Program-made: the position numbers and the translations under genes
Source: Fuerstiella sp.
GTDB taxonomy: Bacteria; Planctomycetota; Planctomycetia; Planctomycetales; Planctomycetaceae
Assembly: GCA_022447225.1 (NCBI GenBank)
Contig: JAKVAZ010000001.1
Span: 124,001-188,000, forward strand
DNA: 64,000 nucleotides
Direction of reading: 5' to 3'
Shown here: positions 11,311 to 12,930 of the stretch, piece by piece
Layout of the letters: every line of letters starts with the position of its first letter
Numbering within the stretch: the first letter of the stretch is position 1
The notes under the pieces: model-generated
Databases searched by the model: none
Seen by the model: the letters and a program-made list of their open reading frames with translations, nothing else
What the model was told of the DNA's origin: nothing

Positions 11311-12930
11311 ATGAGTGAATACACAGATAATCTGATTGTGGGCCAGGGACTGGCAGGAACAACGCTGGCGTGGAGTCTGCTGGACTGCGGGCAGAGTGTC
11401 GTGCTGATAGACAGAGGAGAAACTGCTACAGCATCCAGAGTTTCTGCCGGACTGGTCACTCCCTGGACCGGTCGTCGAATGGCGCAGAGTGATGACTATC
11501 AGGATTACTGGGACACAGCCGTCAGATTCTATCGATCAATTGAAAATCGACTGAAACAGCGACTGTTTACTGAAGGGCCTATGGTACGTGTTTTTGTTAA
11601 TCGTTCGGAAGAATCTGTTTTCTACAAGCGGAAAGCTGTGGCAGCAGAGGGGGCCCTCAAATCATGGTCCGGCAAACTCCAGTCTAACGGGCCGTCTTAC
11701 GCCGGTTGCTGCATGCAACCGGCCGGGCGACTGGATGTACGGCGCTATCTTCAGACGTCAGTAGACTATTTCAGTCAGCGAGGTCTGTGGTTCCGTTTGA
11801 ATCTGGACATACCGGATGGATTGTTGCTGCAGTCGGATCAGGTGGAATTACCGAAACTTGGCCTGACAGCGAAGCGGATCATTTTCTGTCAGGGAGCCGC
11901 ACAGAATCCGTGGTTTGAAGGAGTGCCAAATAATGCATCTCGGGGAGATGTTATCAATGTCCGACTGGATGATTATGTTATGCAGGACGTGGTGCATCAT
12001 TCCGTGTGGCTGGCACCGGAACGGGACGGAAGCATTACGGCAGGATCCACATACGACTGGGAATTTGCGGACAACGCACCAACAGCAAAAGGTCGTCGAC
12101 AAATTCTTAAAGCAATGGGTCGGTTTATCGACGGCAACATTCGAGTCCATCGACATGCAGCAGCAGTACGTCCGACGATGAAAGATTACCGTCCGGTCAT
12201 TGGTCGTCATGGAATCCACAGTTCAGTGTACATATTCAACGGTCTTGGATCTCGGGGAGTTTTGACAGCACCCAGGCTGGCGGAACAGCTTGTGGAGTTT
12301 TTAACGGGGCAGCGGACCAAACTACCTCATCAAATCACCCCGGATCGTCTGCGTAATGAACAGTGGAAAGAATCATTGACACAAGTTGCCCAGAATCGCA
12401 TGGCAAGCGTACTGAGTCACGGAGACGTTGTGATTGATGCGACGGTCGGTAATGGATTTGATACCTGTTTTCTGTCAGCGCATGTGGGGCCCGCCGGGCA
12501 TGTTTACGGATTTGACATACAGCACCAGGCCATCCAGGCCACTCAAAAACGACTGAACGCAGCACAGCTGACGAATGTTAAACTGTTATCGTACAGTCAC
12601 GCTGAGATCAGCCGACATGTGACAACATCAGTCAGTGGAGCTATGTTCAATCTTGGATATTTGCCACGAGGTGATCATTCAATTGTAACCCAGGCAGACA
12701 GCACAATTACCGCCCTGAAACAGTTACAGCAACTTCTTAAACCGGGGGGAATGATCACAGTACTGGCGTATCGCGGGCATGAAGGAGGCCCGGAAGAAAC
12801 GGGAGCGGTGGAGAGCTGGCTGCAAGAACAAACCGAGTGTCTGGTGGAACGTATTGACAGCCATCAGAGCAGGTCAACCTCACCGATATTGTTTATACTG
12901 GTGAAGCGATCACAACAAACGGAAAAATAG
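11311..12930 (+). CDS. FAD-dependent oxidase (DAO/MnmC2-like) fused to MnmM-type tRNA 5-aminomethyl-2-thiouridine methyltransferase
   Basis: From ATG 11311 the protein has 539 residues and two domains. Residues 1-345 are a DAO-fold FAD oxidoreductase, with dinucleotide motif GQGLAG at 11-16, AGSTYDW at 244-250 and the C-terminal FAD motif GLGSRG at 311-316. Residues 355-535 match the YtqB/MnmM methyltransferase family: SAM motif DATVGNG at 376-382, FNLGYLPRGDHSIVT at 446-460 and YRGHEGG at 487-493. MnmM methylates nm5s2U to mnm5s2U at tRNA wobble position 34. In E. coli MnmC a DAO domain makes that nm5s2U from cmnm5s2U. The domain order here (oxidase first) is opposite to MnmC and the methyltransferase is unrelated to MnmC1. 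The likely role is both last steps of mnm5s2U synthesis; this is inference. A glycine-oxidase-like activity is the alternative for the N-domain. Confidence 0.82.
   Translation: MSEYTDNLIVGQGLAGTTLAWSLLDCGQSVVLIDRGETATASRVSAGLVTPWTGRRMAQSDDYQDYWDTAVRFYRSIENRLKQRLFTEGPMVRVFVNRSEESVFYKRKAVAAEGALKSWSGKLQSNGPSYAGCCMQPAGRLDVRRYLQTSVDYFSQRGLWFRLNLDIPDGLLLQSDQVELPKLGLTAKRIIFCQGAAQNPWFEGVPNNASRGDVINVRLDDYVMQDVVHHSVWLAPERDGSITAGSTYDWEFADNAPTAKGRRQILKAMGRFIDGNIRVHRHAAAVRPTMKDYRPVIGRHGIHSSVYIFNGLGSRGVLTAPRLAEQLVEFLTGQRTKLPHQITPDRLRNEQWKESLTQVAQNRMASVLSHGDVVIDATVGNGFDTCFLSAHVGPAGHVYGFDIQHQAIQATQKRLNAAQLTNVKLLSYSHAEISRHVTTSVSGAMFNLGYLPRGDHSIVTQADSTITALKQLQQLLKPGGMITVLAYRGHEGGPEETGAVESWLQEQTECLVERIDSHQSRSTSPILFILVKRSQQTEK

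Follow-up and report, generated by a model that had tools for sequence, protein, structure and literature searches.

Does this locus encode, in a single polypeptide, both activities needed to turn cmnm5(s2)U34 of tRNA into mnm5(s2)U, and are they built from parts other than those of MnmC? The question is raised by a gene at 11311-12930 (+) of the window, the whole 64,000-nucleotide stretch of Fuerstiella sp. DNA that was analysed. A first-pass annotation had read this gene as an MnmC2-like oxidase of the DAO fold followed by an MnmM (YtqB) methyltransferase, in the order opposite to that of MnmC, and had proposed that it provides a one-protein route to mnm5s2U.

One reading frame carries an FAD oxidase domain and an MnmM domain

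Translation of 11311-12930 (+) gives one 539-residue frame with no internal stops; an upstream TTG is a possible alternative start, and the ATG at 11311 agrees with the homologues. The order of the domains is as the annotation had it. An FAD-dependent oxidase domain (residues 1-331; 11311-12303, +), in which PF01266 matches residues 8-329 with E=7.9e-32, is followed by a linker (residues 332-354; 12304-12372, +) that fills the gap between the PF01266 and NF053511 matches, and then by a SAM-dependent methyltransferase domain of the MnmM (YtqB) type (residues 355-535; 12373-12915, +). The profile comparison that had been recommended for the C-terminal half returned PF06962 with E=7.9e-41, and NF053511, the MnmM family, matched residues 355-532 with 195.6 bits for the whole fusion and 199.3 bits for the MnmM domain alone, above its curated cut-off of 135 bits. 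The AlphaFold2 model, computed from an alignment of the window protein and its relatives, has a mean pLDDT of 91.8 over both domains and lower values, about 79-83, in the linker. In Foldseek searches the top fold matches of the DAO half were IdaA, CmiS2, glycine oxidases/ThiO and MnmC, and the MnmM half matched 3eey and the MnmM-tRNA complexes 8h1b and 8h0s.

The five motifs that had been picked out of the translation are all where they had been placed. Three lie in the methyltransferase half and were aligned with B. subtilis MnmM, in which K11, D34, N101, Y104, K110, Y141 and H144 are essential, mutants being nearly inactive, and Asn101 is the proposed general base (PMC9976899). The SAM-site motif DATVGNG (residues 376-382; 12436-12456, +) precedes Asp384, the equivalent of Asp34; FNLGYLPRGD (446-455; 12646-12675, +) contains Asn447 and Tyr450, the equivalents of Asn101 and Tyr104; and YRGHEGG (487-493; 12769-12789, +) contains Tyr487 and His490, the equivalents of Tyr141 and His144. 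Five of the seven essential residues are thus identical in the fusion. The other two are replaced, Lys11 by Gln361 and Lys110 by His456, which stands just after FNLGYLPRGD; relatives have His or Gln at the first of these positions and His or Lys at the second.

In the oxidase half, GQGLAG (residues 11-16; 11341-11358, +) is the GxGxAG FAD (Rossmann) motif, and its Ala15 is common to MnmC1 and not to ThiO. Tyr248 (12052-12054, +) aligns with E. coli MnmC Tyr521 and is a tyrosine in 92% of the oxidase family and missing from ThiO. Arg287 (12169-12171, +), the equivalent of E. coli MnmC Arg567, is present in 99% of the oxidase family and in 100% of both ThiO and MnmC1; it aligns with the carboxylate-binding arginine of glycine oxidase. 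The FAD motif and Arg287 are conserved at 99-100% over 97 members of the oxidase family. GLGSRG (residues 311-316; 12241-12258, +) corresponds to the LGS[RK]G motif of MnmC1 (E. coli Gly616-Ser617-Arg618-Gly619), which does not occur in ThiO or DadA. With Leu312, Gly313 and Ser314 of this motif, Ala15 and Tyr248 make up the positions that the oxidase family and MnmC1 share as against ThiO/DadA, and the positions common to ThiO but not to MnmC1 are fewer. Gly271, Gly273, Arg567, Gly578 and Gly619 are over 98% conserved in MnmC (PMC3648344), and their equivalents are all retained in the oxidase family; Gly287 and Gly518 of the E. coli protein are seemingly conserved too in the oxidase alignment. 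A C-terminal arginine motif (E. coli MnmC Arg653) gave the impression of being shared too, but it is also present in ThiO tails and is left out of this comparison.

The fusion and the gene pair recur

Among 392 genomes of the host's phylum, the full-length fusion was found in three more genomes of the host's family: G344, of the same genus, and G307 and G291, both single-contig assemblies. The annotation had allowed for an assembly artefact; recurrence of the fusion in other genomes, including single-contig ones, rules this out. The family contains 23 genomes with the DAO gene, in four of which it is fused to MnmM and in 16 of which the two genes are neighbours in the same order; they lie apart in G024, G283 and G321. 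Many of the DAO-MnmM pairs have a 4-base ATGA overlap, which we read as a mark of translational coupling. MnmM is present in all 23 DAO genomes of the phylum sample, both genes are missing from five genomes of the host's family, and the rest of the sample has MnmM in five other genomes only (Fisher p about 1e-32 for co-occurrence, a value inflated by shared ancestry). A 698-residue frame in G259 (L037) that holds MnmM was rejected as a fusion, as it overlaps a frame resembling Xaa-Pro-aminopeptidase in another reading frame.

The scan of genome contigs was carried out with the DAO alignment, a query with a single protein having given no matches, and the best 80 of 575 loci were taken, which biases the set toward near relatives. 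Of the 80 loci, 39 contain MnmM, which is fused to the oxidase in ten and separate in 29. Nine of the ten fused loci are planctomycete, adding to the three relatives in answer to the suggestion that the fusion be sought in other planctomycetes, and one is verrucomicrobial (Akkermansiaceae). The separate MnmM genes are mostly directly downstream of the DAO gene and occur in Planctomycetota, Verrucomicrobiota, Hyphomicrobiales/Alphaproteobacteria, Mariprofundus and Methylomonas; in an Omnitrophota locus (L088) MnmM is upstream. Within 1.5-kb flanks, MnmM was found near none of 35 loci of ThiO or other DAO proteins. On the tree of 53 DAO proteins the state must switch six times between fused and separate, and well-supported branches make three of these switches unavoidable, so fusion (or splitting) has occurred more than once. 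The feature is therefore wider than one gene, with fusion apparently a repeated event.

Some minor observations accompany these scans. Linkage is looser in two verrucomicrobial loci, the oxidase and MnmM genes being separated by about 1.8 kb in L103 and about 0.4 kb in L112. For the DAO, a tblastn search of plasmids returned no more than four matches, all weak, and matches to the MnmM half in phage records were located in unannotated records.

The oxidase family forms a clade of its own

The top NCBIfam match of the DAO half was the ThiO profile (TIGR02352) at 92.7 bits; the MnmC1 profile (TIGR03197) gave 73.5 bits, and both scores are far under the respective cut-offs of 250.8 and 174.2 bits. 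All 23 of the DAO relatives matched the MnmC1 model (best E 4.6e-24), and solved glycine oxidases outscored MnmC against the DAO half. In a tree built without long branches, the oxidase family is a clade (support 100/99), MnmC1 is another (100/98), and ThiO and DadA together form a third group (100/96); the tree is unrooted, so its topology does not give the nearest pair of clades. In a quick tree with all rows included, support for the oxidase family was just 11. Oxidases that act on tRNA could not be told from amino-acid oxidases by isoelectric point. The label "MnmC2-like oxidase" therefore needs amending: the likeness to the MnmC oxidase holds, in the LGS[KR]G motif and the residues described above, but the oxidase half of MnmC is MnmC1, or MnmC(o), and the score does not make the protein a member of TIGR03197. 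Judged by its sequence, the oxidase is MnmC1-like but is not an MnmC1 by score and lies outside the MnmC1 clade.

These data bear on the alternative that the DAO half is a ThiO-like glycine or D-amino acid oxidase acting on a free amino acid, its fusion to MnmM being accidental or regulatory. ThiO shares with it the fold, the FAD motif and the carboxylate-binding arginine, and is among its top-scoring solved families by sequence; besides the leading place of the ThiO profile, the top fold matches, IdaA, CmiS2 and glycine oxidases, can be cited for this alternative. The 92.7 bits nevertheless fall far short of 250.8, ThiO is without LGS[KR]G, and a firm grouping with glycine/D-amino acid oxidases, which the annotation had named as grounds for abandoning its reading, was not seen, the DAO clade being split from ThiO and DadA. 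The two enzymes also coexist: a separate ThiO over the cut-off stands beside the fusion in G344, G307 and G291, and occurs in other DAO genomes as well. The host (G000) has no ThiO over the cut-off, and a thiamin role is possible in this one genome; the same-genus G344 has ThiO at 273.7 bits, and its absence from the host may be a gap in a genome that is 97% complete. The recurrent linkage across phyla to two unrelated kinds of tRNA U34 methyltransferase likewise argues against a free amino acid as substrate, and we regard this alternative as very unlikely.

The oxidase is also linked to an MnmC(m)-type methyltransferase

The second kind of methyltransferase appears in an Omnitrophota locus (L104:1972-3745), where the DAO gene overlaps a gene for an MnmC(m)-type methyltransferase; these are two genes in the E. 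coli domain order, and the methyltransferase matches the methyltransferase half of E. coli MnmC with E=1e-58. Fifty DAO genomes were checked; in 20 of them the DAO locus also contains MnmM, and in 30 it does not. PF05430 was found in 20 of the 30 genomes without adjacent MnmM, an unlinked MnmM in three more and neither in seven, whereas only one of the 20 genomes with MnmM in the locus, that of L115, has a PF05430 match, and a weak one (20/30 versus 1/20, p about 1e-5, uncorrected for ancestry). The occurrence of the oxidase with one or the other of two unrelated U34 methyltransferases points to the step that precedes both.

Neither MnmM nor PF05430 was found at the thresholds used in G404, G414, G418, G420, G428, G432 and G433; their oxidase loci are L097, L110, L114, L116, L124, L130 and L131, and the isolates Emticicia aquatica and Chitinophaga pinensis are among them. 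These genomes have either divergent methyltransferases that were missed or another partner. In Bacteroidota (L089, L096, L107, L116, L126 and others) the oxidase is common with no MnmM nearby, and many of the oxidase genomes have an unlinked PF05430 methyltransferase. The oxidase family is a candidate MnmC(o) for Bacteroidota, where that enzyme is missing.

The host has MnmE, MnmG and MnmA and no MnmC

Searches of the host genome bore out the gene complement that the annotation had predicted, with mnmE, mnmG and mnmA present and mnmC and ytqA absent. MnmG scores 816.9 bits, MnmE is a 506-residue frame ending in FSSFCIGK (a stop that was reported within the match is not part of that frame), and MnmA is 43% identical to the E. 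coli protein. In this 97% complete genome, from which a gene might have been missed, there is no PF05430, so there is no MnmC(m) in the same protein or genome; there is no MnmC1 over the cut-off; and the best match to TIGR01212 (YtqA/MnmL-type radical SAM) reaches 41.4 bits, where the cut-off is 180. A complete MnmC in the same genome, which would have counted against the proposal, was accordingly not found. A test of 39 genomes, including 13 of the host's family, gave no MnmC1 over the cut-off in any of them.

Proposed route from cmnm5(s2)U to mnm5(s2)U

Taken together, linkage, gene set and residues support the one-protein route that had been proposed from an oxidase and MnmM in reversed order. 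On the other side of the balance stand the higher score of the DAO half with the ThiO than with the MnmC1 profile, the two replaced MnmM residues and the seven DAO genomes in which neither methyltransferase was found. We conclude that the fusion is very probably a converter of cmnm5(s2)U to nm5(s2)U and on to mnm5(s2)U, like MnmC in action but made of other parts; its substrate, chemistry, products, any hand-over from site to site and any benefit of fusion are here predicted. MnmE and MnmG with glycine would first form cmnm5(s2)U34. The N-terminal FAD domain would then oxidise the N-carboxymethyl, glycine-like side chain of this nucleoside, the resulting imine would hydrolyse to nm5(s2)U and glyoxylate, and the flavin would be reoxidised by O2. 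Finally, the C-terminal MnmM domain would transfer the methyl group of SAM onto nm5(s2)U, giving mnm5(s2)U. The first of the two reactions on the side chain has precedents: MnmC(o) takes the carboxymethyl group off cmnm5U (PMC9976899), and IdaA breaks down N-carboxymethyl amines, releasing the amine and glyoxylate (PMC7312458). IdaA and CmiS2 are the best fold matches of the DAO half and differ from it in acting in small-molecule catabolism or biosynthesis, with 20-22% identity in the fold alignment; the group that IdaA strips as glyoxylate is also carried by cmnm5U, on which the same chemistry is required.

If the DAO half instead acted on another modified nucleoside, or undid the work of MnmM by oxidative N-demethylation of mnm5U, it would resemble the sarcosine oxidases, members of its superfamily that act on N-methylglycine. 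An eraser fused to its own writer would be futile, however, the association with MnmC(m)-type enzymes and the MnmC1-like motif favour the MnmC(o) reaction, and the families tested offer no alternative for that step in the host; we consider such an activity highly improbable. There is likewise only a very small chance that MnmEG makes nm5U directly from ammonium for methylation by MnmM (the E. coli enzyme can form nm5 in this way; PMC3936742, PMC9976899), with the DAO half serving a minor set of tRNAs or inactive, since the DAO gene is kept together with MnmM and the near-invariance of its FAD motif and Arg287 indicates that it is under selection.

The MnmC(o)-like reading extends, with somewhat less assurance, beyond the fusion: the oxidase half likely represents a previously unassigned family that, in many bacteria without MnmC1 and MnmL, performs the MnmC(o) step. 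Its partner would be either MnmM, to which it would have been fused on several occasions, or an orphan MnmC(m)/MnmD.

Relation to known systems

The predicted converter is like the gammaproteobacterial bifunctional MnmC (MnmC(m)-MnmC(o)) in placing an FAD/DAO oxidase and a SAM methyltransferase on one polypeptide for the path from cmnm5U through nm5U to mnm5U, and in the LGS[KR]G, Tyr521 and Arg567 positions of its oxidase. It differs in having MnmM in place of PF05430, in its reversed domain order, and in an oxidase that lies outside the MnmC1 clade and under the MnmC1 cut-off. With MnmM (YtqB) of B. subtilis and S. aureus it shares the NF053511 family, key residues and the predicted nm5-to-mnm5 reaction; the planctomycete MnmM is, unlike those, fused to or beside an oxidase, and has Lys11 and Lys110 replaced. 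In Bacillus, MnmM is encoded beside MnmL. The MnmL-MnmM (YtqA and YtqB) system is a two-step route from cmnm5U to mnm5U in which MnmM also acts last, the first step being taken there by a radical-SAM protein and in the fusion by an FAD oxidase. The abstract of Jaroch et al. 2024 is said to mention fusion proteins and alternate arrangements in this pathway, and for that reason the DAO-MnmM fusion may already have been noted before.

Cho et al. 2023 described as unknown the oxidase that acts ahead of MnmM and, in Bacteroidota and other groups, ahead of an orphan MnmC(m) (PMC9976899); MnmL was later assigned to the step in Gram-positives/Bacilli (Jaroch et al. 2024, cited in PMC12548931). The present family supplies a concrete and testable candidate for this step, an FAD oxidase, in Planctomycetota, Verrucomicrobiota and Hyphomicrobiales and, probably, in Bacteroidota. 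If the assignment is true, the family would be a third class of enzyme for the MnmC(o) step, and would supply what the literature describes as missing in Bacteroidota that have an orphan mnmC(m). The finding further suggests that, more than once and from different components, both steps of this tRNA reaction have come to reside in a single protein; such a history would make the bifunctional enzyme a product of convergent evolution. Two members of the Pseudomonadota, Methylomonas sp. SURF-2 and Mariprofundus sp. KV (L106 and L120), have the DAO-MnmM pair and no MnmC1 over the cut-off, which suggests that in these genomes MnmC has been replaced by the pair.
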